Assembly (NCBI GenBank): GCA_035651995.1
Contig: DASRER010000020.1
Coordinates: forward strand, 62,001-126,000
Direction of reading: 5' to 3'
Length of the DNA: 64,000 bases
Source: Terriglobales bacterium
GTDB taxonomy: Bacteria; Acidobacteriota; Terriglobia; Terriglobales; Acidobacteriaceae
The position numbers were made by a program, and so were the translations under genes. Positions 8,652 through 13,072 of this stretch are shown piece by piece. How positions within the stretch are numbered: the stretch's first letter is position 1; each line of letters starts with the position of its first letter. Below the pieces are notes generated by a model, which saw only the letters and a program-made list of their open reading frames with translations, made no database searches and was not told where the DNA came from.

Positions 8652-9635
8652 CTAACCGAGCACGCCAATCGCCGCGTACGCCACCAGCAGCACGATAGTG
8701 CCGGCCGCCACTTGCTTGCGCCAGCGCGTCTCCAGCAGGTCGGCGAAGACGCCGGCGATGAACATGAACAGCATGGGAAGGGCTGGATTCCAAATTGTTG
8801 CTGACGGCGACCAGACGGACCACAAGTCGCGGTCCGCGAGCACGAATGCAAGCAGCAGGCCATAGGCCGCGAGCGCGAGCAGCGGAGCCGTGTTACCGAA
8901 GAAACGACTCCGACGCCGGCCGAGCCAAGCGGCTAGGGCGATCGCGGTCAGGGCCAGCAGCACTGGGTTCAGTTGTCCGAGATCGTCAGGGTGGCCGGAA
9001 CTCGGCAGCCGATTGAATAGCGCGACGTGGGGACCCAACCGTTGCATCACGATGAACACGATTGCGCCTGAGGCGCAGCCAACAAGCCAAAGGCCAGCTG
9101 CCTCGAGCCGCCTTCGCGGCGCCAGGAACAACATGAACACCAGCGCCAACGGCACTGCCAACGCAACCGCCGGCAGCGAATACGAACCTACGCCGAGCGC
9201 CAGACCGATCATCACTGGACGGCGAAAGCGCTGGCCGGGCGAGAGGACACCCGGAACGGCGTACAACGTGTGCGCGGCAGCCATCGCTACAAAGATTGCC
9301 CCGAAGAACCCCCAGCTCGCCAGGCCCATCCGCGCCGAGCCGGCGCCCTGCTGGATCATGCGCGGGGAAAAGCAGTACAGCGCGAGTGCGATCAACGCGC
9401 ACAATGGCCCGTAGAGTCGCCGTCCCACATACCAGATGGAAGCTCCCAGCAGAGTGCCGACCAGAAGGGCCCCGGCGCGCGGAACCAACGCCGACAAGCC
9501 GTCCGATTCCGAGGATGAATACCGCAGGATGGCCAGCAGGCACTGCGCTGCGAATGCCAGGAGCAGGAAGGCGGCGGCCAACCCCGGTTGTTTCACGCCT
9601 GAGTGCGCGGGTGCGGCGTCGGCAGTCTCAGCCAT
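8652..9635 (-). CDS. Polytopic membrane protein, possibly GT-C-like
   Basis: About 327 residues with roughly eight to nine hydrophobic segments. Internal motifs such as GRRLYGPLCALIALALYCFSP followed by a polar loop and then another membrane pair resemble dolichyl-phosphate-mannose-type (GT-C) glycosyltransferase membrane regions, but the first-loop acidic motif of real GT-C enzymes is not evident, so this is only a possibility. A start at 9656 would add seven residues; I prefer the ATG at 9635, without strong ribosome-binding evidence for either. The product is best called a conserved membrane protein. Confidence 0.65.
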   Translation of the reverse strand: MAETADAAPAHSGVKQPGLAAAFLLLAFAAQCLLAILRYSSSESDGLSALVPRAGALLVGTLLGASIWYVGRRLYGPLCALIALALYCFSPRMIQQGAGSARMGLASWGFFGAIFVAMAAAHTLYAVPGVLSPGQRFRRPVMIGLALGVGSYSLPAVALAVPLALVFMLFLAPRRRLEAAGLWLVGCASGAIVFIVMQRLGPHVALFNRLPSSGHPDDLGQLNPVLLALTAIALAAWLGRRRSRFFGNTAPLLALAAYGLLLAFVLADRDLWSVWSPSATIWNPALPMLFMFIAGVFADLLETRWRKQVAAGTIVLLVAYAAIGVLG

Positions 9636-9716
9636 TCGCGGGCTCACGCAGGACATTGTGTCGAGAGCAGGGCTCCCCCTTCGCTGCGCTCCTCGGGATG
9701 CAGTTCCAAAGCACGA

Positions 9717-9768: not shown

Positions 9769-9795
9769 TTGTACTATTGAAGAGTTGGAGGCCCC

Positions 9796-10473
9796 ATGCC
9801 CCTGGAAATGTCCCGCAAGTCGGTCCCGTACACCCCGGTCACGAGCAAGGTCAGCGAGATGGCAATCGCGCTCGTCTCCTCCACCGGCGTTTACCTCGAA
9901 GGCCAGCCGCCCTTCTCGTCCAACAGCGACGAGAGCTATCGCGTCATTCCCGGCGACGCCGACCCTTCCGCACTGCGCTTCCAGCACGGCCACTACGACG
10001 AGAGCGACGCCCGCCGCGATCCCAACAGCGTTTTCCCGCTGGCGCTGCTGCGCGAACTCGCCGCGCAGGGCATGATCGGCAAGGTGTCCAACAAGCACAT
10101 CGGCTTCAAGGGTTTTTCCAGCGACCTCAAGGCGCAGTACGAAGTGCTGGCCCCGGCCATCGCGCACGAAATCGAGCGCTCGCAGGCAGACGCCGTCGTC
10201 CTCACCGGCGGTTGACCGGTCTGCCACCGCGTAATCGTTGCGGCGCAACGAGAGATCGAAGCAAAAGGAATCCCCACGGTCCTCATCACCGTCTCGCCGG
10301 AGGACTCACGCCCCATGCGTCCACCGCGCGCCATTTGTCCCGTCGGACACAAGATGGGACGCGTGCTCGGCCCGGCCGGGGACCACAAAACGCAACTGCG
10401 CGTGCTCAGCGAAGCGCTGCGCCAGTTCGAGCAGCTGCGCATGCCGGGTGAGATCGTGGAATTCCAGCCGTAG
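9796..10473 (+). CDS. GrdB/PrdB-like selenoprotein with in-frame UGA (Sec140)
   Basis: A 225-residue reading frame interrupted only by TGA at 10213-10215 (codon 140). Upstream it reads ADAVVLTGG and downstream, in the same frame, PVCHRVIVAAQREIEAKGIP, so the junction is GG-U-PVCH, a UxxC redox motif. This matches the glycine/sarcosine/betaine/D-proline reductase selenoprotein B family, where Sec sits after a hydrophobic strand. The downstream half keeps family-like sequence (CPVGHKMGRVLG, LSEALRQFEQLRMPGEIVEF) up to a TAG stop. A SECIS-like hairpin follows the TGA (10235-10251). GGAGG at 9787-9791 supports the ATG at 9796. It is a short stand-alone protein, without GrdE or PrdA subunits nearby, so the reaction is unknown. 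Alternatives are a nonsense mutation in a Cys homologue or a sequence error. Standard gene callers would truncate it at residue 139. Confidence 0.82.
10213..10251 (+). promoter_or_regulatory. Sec UGA codon and bacterial SECIS-like hairpin
   Basis: TGA is at 10213-10215. Downstream, TCGTTGC (10235-10241) pairs perfectly with GCAACGA (10245-10251) around the three-base loop GGC. The loop begins 26 bases after the TGA and has G in its first two positions. Bacterial SECIS elements usually place the apical loop 16-37 bases after the UGA with a G in the first two loop positions, so both criteria are met. Confidence 0.75.
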
Positions 10474-10588
10474 CAGTCAGCGCTCAGCCGTCAGCATTCA
10501 GCCCCTGAACGGCTTCAGCGAGGATGCGCGCCCTTAGCCGGGGAACGTGCAGGGGCTGAATGCTGAGTGCTGAATGCTGGGTGCTGCC
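10474..10588. repeat. Inverted heptad element, CAGCATTCAGCCCCTG family
   Basis: It starts right after the TAG of the selenoprotein gene. The left arm is CAGTCAG, CGCTCAG, CCGTCAG, CATTCAG, CCCCTGA. After about 40 bases the complement follows (CAGGGGC, TGAATGC, TGAGTGC, TGAATGC, TGGGTGC). It ends at the stop of lptD, so it fills the whole convergent gap and may act as a two-way terminator. Confidence 0.8.
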
Positions 10589-13072
10589 TTAGAACAATCT
10601 CTCCTGCCGCCTCATCGTCCCAAACGTCCCGATGTTCGCCAGCGAGAGCGAGAAGCGGAACTGGTTTTCATTGCGCACCGCGCCCAGCGCCAGCCGCCGG
10701 TATTCGAACGTCGCGCCGATGCAGTCCCAGTTGTAGCTGAGCTGGCCGACCGAGTACTGCAGGAAGTTCAGGTTGGTGTCGGCGCCGATGTTGCCGGCGA
10801 AGTTGAAGCCGCGCTTGTTGGGATGTCCCCAGCCGGCCAGCACGCGGAACTGGTTGAACAGGTCTGGACCGGGAATGGGATTGGTGGTGAAGATTTCGCC
10901 GGGAACGTGGAAATAGGCGTGGCTGCCGCCCACGAAAAACTCTCCGAAGCGCCACGCGGCAATCGCCGTTGACGCGTTGATCCGCCCTTTCTTGAAGTCG
11001 TAGTCCAGGGTCCATTGCAGGTCGGTGCTGGCGCTGGGGTGGATGCGCAGCCGCGACGCCAGCGGCGAGGTGTGGCGCGGCTCGGTGAGGAAGGCGATGC
11101 CGCTGAATTCGGCCGTGGTGGTCAGCACGTTGCGCCGCCCATTGACCACCGCGCCGCCGAAATCGGGATCGAAGAACGCCTTCTGCGCCAGCTCCCAGGT
11201 CACGATCTCGCGCGCGCTGCCGGCTTCGTAACACGGATTCCCCGCGGGCAGGTTCTCGTGCGTGTGGGCGAACTCGGGCGCTTCGGAATTCTGCGCCATC
11301 GGATCGCGAACCGGCTGGGCCGGCCCGCCGGCGGAGCAGTCTCCCGGGTTTGGCCGGCGCGCGTAGATCCGGTTCACCAGCGCGTACTCCAGCTCGTTGG
11401 TGTTGCTCAATATGTCTTTGGCGTCGAAGCGGATGATGCTGCTGAAGTTGTCCACGCCGCTCGTTAGCCGGTAGTTCAGCCTGGGTTCCACCACATGCTT
11501 CCATTGGCGGCCAAAGATCTGCCGGTCGAAGACCCGCGAAATCGCCGGTGGACGCGCCTCCGCGCCGATCTCGACCGCGCGGCGGTTCGCGTCAATGGGA
11601 ACCGGCGTGCCCAGCGACCCGTTCGGAACAACACGCTGCGTGTAGTAGGTCTCGTGCAGGACCAGCTCCGGCCTGAACGTCCAGCCCTTCAGGAACAGCG
11701 GGGCCGCAATCGAAGGCGTCAGGTCGAAGCGGCCGACCACCGGATCGGTCTCGAATCCCGGCTCGCGCCGCGAAACGCCTTCCGCCGCCGCGCCGTACGA
11801 GAACACGAAAGGCGTGCGCCGGATGCGCTTCTCCACGCTGCCCACTTCGAAGCTGGGGATGTGCAGGATGGAGACGTAGTCGCCCTTCGCGGTGCTCTCA
11901 AAGTTCTGGTAGCGGTTGCCGGACAGGTTGAAGAAGTATCCGTTCTGCGCCTTGCTGGCGAAGGCCAGCGAGCGGACTTCCGAGTTCACCGCCTGGGAAA
12001 AGGTTTCCGTAAATGCCTGGCGGAAGACGAACGAGCTGAGGTACTCGATGTCGGCCACCCCGCGTATGCCGAACGGGAACGTGGTTTCGCCGCTGCCGCG
12101 CACGTCTTCGCCGCCCTGGTCCATCTTGGTCGGTCCGAAGCCGCGGTCGAGCACGCCGAAGTAGCGGACCTCGAAATACGTCTTGTCGCTCGGCTTGCCG
12201 CGAAATTCGCCGTGCTGCGCCCAGCCGCGGTCGGAAAAGTATTCCGCGCCAATGGTCGTATCGAAGCTGCGATTGATCGCCCAGTAGAACGCGTCGCCCA
12301 GCACCGTGCCCTTGGTTGACGACTGTCCGACGGTCGGAATCAGGAACCCGCTCTGCCGTCCCAGCGCCTCGACCGGGTGCTGCACGTAGGGCAGGTAGAA
12401 CAGCGGGATGCGTCCAAGGCGAAACGTGGTGTGGTAGATCTGCGCGTTGTCGCCCACCTCAACCACCACGCGCTGCGCGCGAAAGCTCCACGCCGGCATC
12501 TCCGGGTTGTCGCACGAAGTGACCCAGCCATCGTGGACCACGAAGTGGTCCGGTCCGGTCTTGTCCACGCGCGAGCCGGCAAAGATGAACGGCCGCGACG
12601 AGGTCAGCTGCAGCCGATTGCCGCGCAAGCGGATGCCGGTAGTGCCCAGCACGTCGTAGAACGTGCCGCTCTCGCTTTGCAGGTTGTAGTGGCCGCGCGA
12701 GGCGTGCACGTCTTCGTCGTGCGGCCCGCCCAACAGCCGCACGTGGCCGGTGGCGGTGGCCTCGCCCGTGGCCTCGTTGTAGGTGATCTCGTCGGCGCTG
12801 AACGTGAGGTTCTTGTAGGTGATGCGCACGTCGCCGCTCAGCGTGAAGGCGTCACCCTGCTTCTGCTGCGTCTTCGCCTCGATCTTCACTGGTTCGCCCG
12901 GTTGCGTGCTTGGCGCCGGCGCCAGCGCCGTGGCGGTGGTCTGCGCGGGCGAGGCCGTCTGCCCAGGCGTGGTGGTCTGCTCGGCGCGCAACTGGCTGGT
13001 TAATAGCGGCGCTGCCACAAGCCCATGACAAAGCAGCGCTGCCGTGGTAACCAGTATTTTGCGGAGCGTCAT
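10589..13072 (-). CDS. lptD: LPS-assembly outer membrane protein LptD
   Basis: An 827-residue LptD (OstA/Imp), the outer-membrane translocon that receives lipopolysaccharide from the Lpt bridge and places it in the outer leaflet. There is a signal sequence (about residues 1-30), a Pro/Thr/Ala-rich linker, then a jellyroll OstA domain (about 60-170) with the repeats SGDVRITYKNLTFSADEITYNE and ATGHVRLLGG typical of LptA/LptD. The rest is a large beta-barrel ending in a terminal Phe (RRQERLF). Cysteines occur in TSCDNPEMP and in the barrel loops (GDCSAGG, NPCYEAG, WDCIGA); they may form the structural disulfides, though the E. coli spacing is not conserved. The partner lptE is not visible. It starts from ATG 13072, divergent from the RDD gene. 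Confidence 0.93.
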   Translation of the reverse strand: MTLRKILVTTAALLCHGLVAAPLLTSQLRAEQTTTPGQTASPAQTTATALAPAPSTQPGEPVKIEAKTQQKQGDAFTLSGDVRITYKNLTFSADEITYNEATGEATATGHVRLLGGPHDEDVHASRGHYNLQSESGTFYDVLGTTGIRLRGNRLQLTSSRPFIFAGSRVDKTGPDHFVVHDGWVTSCDNPEMPAWSFRAQRVVVEVGDNAQIYHTTFRLGRIPLFYLPYVQHPVEALGRQSGFLIPTVGQSSTKGTVLGDAFYWAINRSFDTTIGAEYFSDRGWAQHGEFRGKPSDKTYFEVRYFGVLDRGFGPTKMDQGGEDVRGSGETTFPFGIRGVADIEYLSSFVFRQAFTETFSQAVNSEVRSLAFASKAQNGYFFNLSGNRYQNFESTAKGDYVSILHIPSFEVGSVEKRIRRTPFVFSYGAAAEGVSRREPGFETDPVVGRFDLTPSIAAPLFLKGWTFRPELVLHETYYTQRVVPNGSLGTPVPIDANRRAVEIGAEARPPAISRVFDRQIFGRQWKHVVEPRLNYRLTSGVDNFSSIIRFDAKDILSNTNELEYALVNRIYARRPNPGDCSAGGPAQPVRDPMAQNSEAPEFAHTHENLPAGNPCYEAGSAREIVTWELAQKAFFDPDFGGAVVNGRRNVLTTTAEFSGIAFLTEPRHTSPLASRLRIHPSASTDLQWTLDYDFKKGRINASTAIAAWRFGEFFVGGSHAYFHVPGEIFTTNPIPGPDLFNQFRVLAGWGHPNKRGFNFAGNIGADTNLNFLQYSVGQLSYNWDCIGATFEYRRLALGAVRNENQFRFSLSLANIGTFGTMRRQERLF

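Follow-up and report, generated by a model that had tools for sequence, protein, structure and literature searches.

A stand-alone PrdB-like selenoprotein of Acidobacteriota and its possible link to a one-selenocysteine peroxiredoxin

The stretch of 64,000 nucleotides analysed here, referred to below as the window, contains an open frame that is broken by a single TGA and then continues in the same register to a TAG. Is this TGA read as selenocysteine (Sec), and if so, what could a selenoprotein of the glycine/proline reductase type do when its gene stands alone? Direct reading confirmed the frame described in a first-pass annotation of the sequence: on the forward strand, an ATG at 9796 is followed by 139 codons, the TGA (codon 140, 10213-10215), 85 further codons and the TAG at 10471-10473. 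The gene (9796-10473) thus encodes 225 residues with Sec140, and frame reading, profile matches and a tree identify it as that of a PrdB-like selenoprotein. GGAGG (9787-9791, + strand), 4 bases 5' of the ATG, is a likely ribosome-binding site. The TGA lies in DAVVLTGG-U-PVCHRVIVA, and the frame and aligned homologues show the TGC of codon 143 (10222-10224) to be the Cys of the UxxC motif proposed earlier. When a gene caller treats the TGA as a stop, the protein is truncated at residue 139.

The earlier statement that the gene stands alone was equally borne out, as both of its neighbours in the window are on the opposite strand: a divergent upstream gene with a weak PMT_2 match below the gathering score (8652-9656) and the convergent downstream gene of LptD (10589-13072), both outside the system considered here. 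The interval between the two convergent genes (10471-10587) holds a long imperfect inverted repeat, which is perhaps a terminator shared by the selenoprotein gene and lptD. It matches microRNA models far under their gathering scores, which we read as no more than an indication of a hairpin.

An open frame beyond the TGA is not rare by itself. In this G+C-rich DNA the 85 codons stayed open in 2352 of 20000 base shuffles (about 12%), and the proof must therefore come from conservation. Besides the TGA itself, this figure is all that speaks for a genuine stop or an error in the sequence, which would make the gene a pseudogene or a gene for a Cys protein. Comparison of the window gene with three homologues gave synonymous/non-synonymous counts of differing codons of 28/19 (L060), 28/25 (L031) and 20/26 (L061) among the 85 codons after the TGA, and of 32/36, 33/40 and 34/35, respectively, among 135 codons before it, which indicates that constraint after the TGA is about equal to that before. 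Among the matches listed, no residue but Sec or Cys was found at position 140 of the 45 distinct loci (the window counted), codon 140 being TGA in 36 and TGC or TGT in nine; three of the Sec rows (L070, L072, L073) do not differ from one another in the 60 bases counted from the TGA, and a short fragment from genome G097 (L029, the same as L075), which stops before codon 140, is outside the 45. The nine close members (67-100% identity, G188 and L076 counted as one locus) are divided into five with TGA (the window, G144, G188, G157 and G042) and four with Cys (G580, G619, G587 and G089). Apart from the window, the same codon is thus TGA in four close genomes (68-75% identity) from three genus groups and, over all matches listed, in 35 of 44 loci. 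This conservation already contradicts a stop or an error, an explanation that is scarcely credible and against which the Sec machinery and the hairpin described below also count. As to the identity of these relatives, L076 comes from an Acidobacteriota MAG named Candidatus Korobacter versatilis, and the closest relative to bear a name is an Acidobacteriota MAG whose name includes 'groundwater'.

The assembly that holds the window (G000; 3.66 Mb, 99% complete) carries all four components of Sec synthesis and decoding that were looked for: selA (552 bits), selB (353 bits), selC, present as one tRNA with the anticodon TCA that ARAGORN names tRNA-SeC, and selD (367 bits). The latter is itself of the Sec type, with its own in-frame TGA in AAG-U-ASK (G000:C25:28861-29790, which corresponds to L018 1501-2430 on the minus strand). 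SelB scored above the cut-off in 14/14 genomes with a TGA-bearing clade member, 36 genomes being tested. At least seven changes between Sec and Cys are needed on the tree over the 38 rows with a state; L074, a Sec row to which the pattern assigned no state, was left out of this count. We also considered whether the Cys forms mark a loss of Sec decoding. For the close clade this was ruled out by the presence of SelB above the cut-off in all four Cys genomes; G383 and G481, which also have a homologue with a codon other than TGA, gave no SelB match at that level.

A further sign of Sec decoding is found just past the TGA. The sequence TCGTTGC-GGY-GCAACGA, which can form 7/7 Watson-Crick pairs, is present in each of the five close Sec members, 22-38 bases downstream of the T of the TGA. 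In the window this putative SECIS hairpin, assigned by stem comparison, is TCGTTGC-GGC-GCAACGA (10235-10251, + strand), with 7 bp and a loop of 3. The four close Cys members have 3-4 Watson-Crick pairs, two wobbles and 1-2 broken pairs at this place. A perfect stem of such length arose in 0/300 synonymous recodings for each of the five close Sec members, and it is built with rarer codons: in eight genes of the window, 18 of 119 Gln codons are CAA and 12 of 300 Arg codons are CGA. RNAalifold recovers the stem from the close Sec rows, among which it is invariant and therefore offers no covariation. Fold energy was tried as a test for SECIS elements and rejected, because the minimum hairpin energy does not distinguish Sec from Cys rows and 42-69 of 100 synonymous recodings of the five close Sec rows fold at least equally well; perfect stem length alone separates the two. 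None of the Rfam SECIS families matched at threshold, the match to SECIS_4 at 10236-10251 being sub-threshold (19.6 bits, gathering 38). The Sec members whose genes adjoin a peroxiredoxin gene (see below) have stems of 3-5 bp, none both long and perfect, and RNAalifold gave no trustworthy common stem in these sets. Taken together with the conserved codon and the machinery, the hairpin leads us to regard the window gene as almost certainly a selenoprotein gene, in which SelB, guided by the small hairpin 22-38 bases past the TGA, would insert Sec140.

A perfect 8-bp stem loop past the TGA was also observed in 10 of the 12 rows of a distant Sec group with the motif VPV-U-PVCHQSVGL (L045-L049, L051-L056 and L059), where it arose in at most 1/300 recodings.

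The placement of the protein in the GrdB/PrdB group, made earlier from the sequence alone, is supported by matches to PF07355 (46.2 bits, gathering 22) and to TIGR04483 (152.8 bits). GrdB (glycine-betaine-sarcosine-D-proline reductase selenoprotein B; PF07355, TIGR01918) resembles it in the Pfam domain, found above the gathering score, but only the C-terminal half of the GrdB models of about 430 positions is matched, and 52.7 bits against TIGR01918 is below the cut-off of 65.45. The likeness to PrdB (TIGR04483) of Clostridia, Enterococcus and Ligilactobacillus is closer and extends to length, Sec or Cys in a UxxC motif, and an alignment over 93-95% of the window protein at about 36-42% identity. 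PrdB is the best NCBIfam model (1e-44), and together with the UxxC motif this favours a true PrdB, i.e. a D-proline reductase subunit of an amino-acid fermenter. Nevertheless, the score is about half of the equivalog cut-off of 300, whereas L098, a prdA-linked control, reached 354.8 bits. The gene has no prd operon around it, and the PrdD profile TIGR04482, which detects both prdD and prdA on a plasmid used as the positive control (W01), gave 0 matches in G000. Of 11 relatives searched with the same profile, 10 gave no match and G536 gave two of 21 bits, on another contig than its PrdB-like gene.

The tree and the motif also set the window protein apart from PrdB. In a tree of 39 rows it falls into a clade of 22 (support 100/99), whereas five Bacillota PrdB proteins form a separate clade (support 100/100); prdA is annotated beside two of the five (L098 and L146) and not beside L147 or L097, and the source record of L145 has no annotation there. 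The window protein has UPVCHR as its motif, versus UGTCHR in the Bacillota clade (CGTCHR in L147), and U/C-x-x-x-C spacing replaces UxxC in 10 of the 22 clade members. As no PrdA-type partner was found in G000, we regard the protein as a free-standing member of its clade and not, we are confident, as a subunit of D-proline reductase; the opposite reading is largely contradicted already and highly improbable. The window protein is, then, a PrdB-like selenoprotein with a GRDB domain, and it does not pass tests for PrdB proper. Among the Bacillota rows, L097 (5944-6657, on a plasmid of Peptoclostridium acidaminophilum) carries the annotation prdB, has no annotated prdA less than 6 kb away and reaches 294 bits against the TIGR04483 cut-off of 300; it is perhaps another stand-alone form.

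Structure prediction with AlphaFold2 from two sequences only gave a mean pLDDT of 59.7, and Foldseek found no match to the predicted structure in the PDB at E <= 0.001. A sequence search of the PDB returned one short match to an anti-sigma factor (E 0.016), which was taken as chance; no conclusion is based on these results.

What the protein might do instead is indicated by the gene neighbourhoods of its more distant relatives. In 13/13 clade members outside the window's family, which represent eight family groups, a peroxiredoxin gene lies directly upstream on the same strand, with 18-265 bp between the aligned ends. Twelve of these pairs were read in sequence with wide flanks (L085-L096), and the thirteenth, G267 (one TGA), was placed by coordinates. 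The peroxiredoxin is an AhpC-TSA protein of about 154 residues whose peroxidatic site, TPV-U, is encoded by TGA in 11 of the 12 read; with G267, it is Sec in 12 of 13 and Cys in one. As the TGA cuts the gene in 11 of 12, ordinary ORF calls miss it, and a longest-ORF neighbour map was misled by antisense ORFs in the G+C-rich DNA, so that the gene stayed hidden until a map based on third-position G+C was combined with tblastn. The exception, G207, has Cys both in the peroxiredoxin and in the adjoining PrdB-like protein; in G238, G406 and G226 a Sec-peroxiredoxin is paired with a Cys PrdB-like protein. Apart from the peroxiredoxin, no neighbour common to the distant members was found. This adjacency suggests a role in peroxide defence and not in proline breakdown. 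The redox role, which the first-pass annotation had left open, is narrowed to that of a peroxiredoxin-associated PrdB-like clade.

Co-occurrence in the phylum sample points in the same direction, all counts being made without regard to relatedness. Among 396 genomes of the phylum (by handle and tally, the same draw for both proteins) a close PrdB-like protein was present in 15 (E <= 1.1e-45) and the peroxiredoxin subfamily in 18 (E <= 1e-46, a threshold picked after the list was seen). Fifteen genomes carry both and three the peroxiredoxin alone (G431 with TGA, G324 and G284 without), which gives a Fisher value of 1.5e-24 if kinship is ignored. In 42 genomes chosen by hand, all 22 with a clade member have the peroxiredoxin at >= 52% identity. 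Of the seven whose PrdB-like proteins are all distant, G097 and G553 have a Sec-peroxiredoxin at 53%. G306 and G281, the two genomes of the VPV-U-PVCHQSVGL group that were tested, gave no peroxiredoxin match above 38% identity. None of the 13 genomes without a PrdB-like match reached 50%, G012 having 49%, with TGA; but the G012 protein is 66% identical to the peroxiredoxin of the window genome, also with TGA, and the 0/13 control is therefore query-dependent and fails inside the family.

The window's own family shows a looser arrangement. No peroxiredoxin was found by tblastn in the 64-kb window; the Sec-peroxiredoxin of its genome (G000:C35:38804-39277, one TGA, TPV-U-AAQ) is unlinked to the PrdB-like gene. 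All nine family genomes with a close PrdB-like gene have a peroxiredoxin with TGA, adjacent in 0/9: the two genes are on different contigs in six and more than 100 kb apart in three. Across 398 family genomes the peroxiredoxin (E <= 1e-35) occurs in 86 and a close PrdB-like gene in nine, all within the 86. The presence of the peroxiredoxin without a close PrdB-like gene in 77 of the 398, and in G431, G324 and G284 of the phylum sample, rules out a strict mutual partnership; the dependence, if real, is one-way, with the PrdB-like protein accompanied by the peroxiredoxin and not the reverse. The nearest model for the proposed partner, a different protein from the PrdB-like one, is the Sec-peroxiredoxin PrxU (TxxU; NF040737), against which the G000 protein scores 75.5 bits with a cut-off of 270; this is the best of 12 NCBIfam models matched, and with every one of them the protein stays under the cut-off. 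A second, distant peroxiredoxin-like match in G000 (G000:C47:21795-22217) has 34% identity and one in-frame TGA.

Other genes were observed near the PrdB-like gene in its close relatives. A gene for an FlK-type (PF22636) thioesterase is upstream and co-directional in six of eight (L078, L079 and L081-L084), within about 420 bp in five and at about 1.65 kb in L079, and members of the tgt, yajC, secD and secF families occur nearby in several.

One-Cys and one-Sec peroxiredoxins depend on an outside reductant. Among the 21 peroxiredoxins read here, the peroxidatic residue is Sec in 20 and Cys in one; 11 contain no further Cys, and none of the additional Cys positions is common to all. Encoded next to such a one-Sec peroxiredoxin, a protein that has a Sec/Cys pair is therefore a natural candidate for its reductant, and the UxxxC or CxxxC spacing of 10 of the 22 clade members implies that the two residues are not necessarily arranged in the manner of thioredoxin-like motifs. 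We propose that the peroxiredoxin reduces peroxide, which would leave its Sec oxidised; a resolving Cys is not conserved in this protein. Sec140 of the PrdB-like protein may then attack the oxidised peroxiredoxin and Cys143 release it, the oxidation being taken over as an internal Se-S bond in the PrdB-like protein, which a cellular thiol system would finally re-reduce. We give a probability of roughly 0.45 to the explanation as a whole, i.e. that the window protein is a selenoprotein of the PrdB-like clade, is not a proline reductase and serves a one-Sec peroxiredoxin. That the PrdB-like protein acts specifically as a selenol/thiol oxidoreductase partner of that peroxiredoxin is, judged from gene order and motifs, plausible at somewhat less than even odds.

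Several observations weigh against such a partnership: the genes are apart in every one of the nine family genomes, the family peroxiredoxin mostly occurs without a close PrdB-like gene, Sec-peroxiredoxins are present in G097 and G553, which have a distant PrdB-like protein only, and in G012, which has none, the UxxC spacing is absent from 10 of 22 clade members, and an FlK-type thioesterase precedes the gene in most close relatives. The last point would fit the main competing explanation, in which the protein is a stand-alone selenol reductase that cleaves a C-N, C-S or C-halogen bond of a small molecule and the peroxiredoxin is only its protector or operon mate. Homology to GrdB and PrdB, which act on amino-acid substrates according to the accessible part of a review (PMC13188914), agrees with this, as do the polar residues D45, R49, D75, N77, E155 and R178, which, in addition to the Sec site, are invariant in 30 aligned rows and could line a substrate pocket. 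On the other hand, G000 has no PrdA/PrdD-type partner, and the peroxiredoxin is the only neighbour found in common among distant members, which leaves a small-molecule reductase a doubtful, if serious, possibility. It is also conceivable that the two proteins share only a regulon or a demand, for selenium or under oxidative stress, without direct redox contact. The family data are what one would then expect, the peroxiredoxin being far commoner than the PrdB-like gene and never adjacent to it; nonetheless, tight adjacency in all 13 members outside the family, across eight family groups, and the retention of the pair in G207, with Cys in both proteins, make this explanation unlikely.

Selenoproteins named PrdB have been known since 2005. 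The accessible parts of two ocean metagenome studies give 42 'PrdB' UxxC selenoprotein sequences beside 43 of Prx (2005; PMC1088965) and 235 of 'PrdB' and 253 of Prx (2008; PMC2398784), and 'PrdB' or proline reductase is ranked with the bacterial selenoproteins of widest distribution or greatest abundance in what is accessible of PMC9312934, PMC5029168 and PMC2398784. The marine proteins resemble the window protein in the UxxC motif, in name and in being among the commonest marine selenoproteins; they are called proline reductase, with no peroxiredoxin neighbour named in those parts, and the comparison is one of description, not of sequence. Reviews, as far as accessible, give TIGR04483 with UxxC (PMC13188914, PMC9312934), and the selenoprotein operons in the former pair Prx with a SELENOW-like protein, a Prx-like protein with an AhpD-like one, and PrdB only with PrdC. 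A 2006 survey lists, in its accessible part, three selenoprotein families in Acidobacteria (PMC1794560). Our literature search found no paper that combines PrdB, selenoproteins and Acidobacteria, and no description of the PrdB-peroxiredoxin pair; subscription papers were thinly covered, and a report may exist. The link between this clade and peroxiredoxin was thus not found in print among the sources accessible to us.

The label 'PrdB' or proline reductase is very likely wrong for the window's clade, and the link to the peroxiredoxin offers a testable role for its stand-alone form, all the more as Sec and Cys versions in sister species can be compared. Tentatively, Acidobacteriota may run a peroxide-removal pair of two selenoproteins, in which a one-Sec peroxiredoxin without a resolving Cys is served by a PrdB-like protein, a former reductase subunit that has become its dedicated Sec/Cys reductant. 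If this is true, the amino-acid-reductase family would count among its members a reductase of peroxiredoxin that has no relation to thioredoxin, glutaredoxin, AhpF or AhpD, and the pair could explain part of the 'PrdB' and 'Prx' selenoproteins that are so common in ocean surveys.
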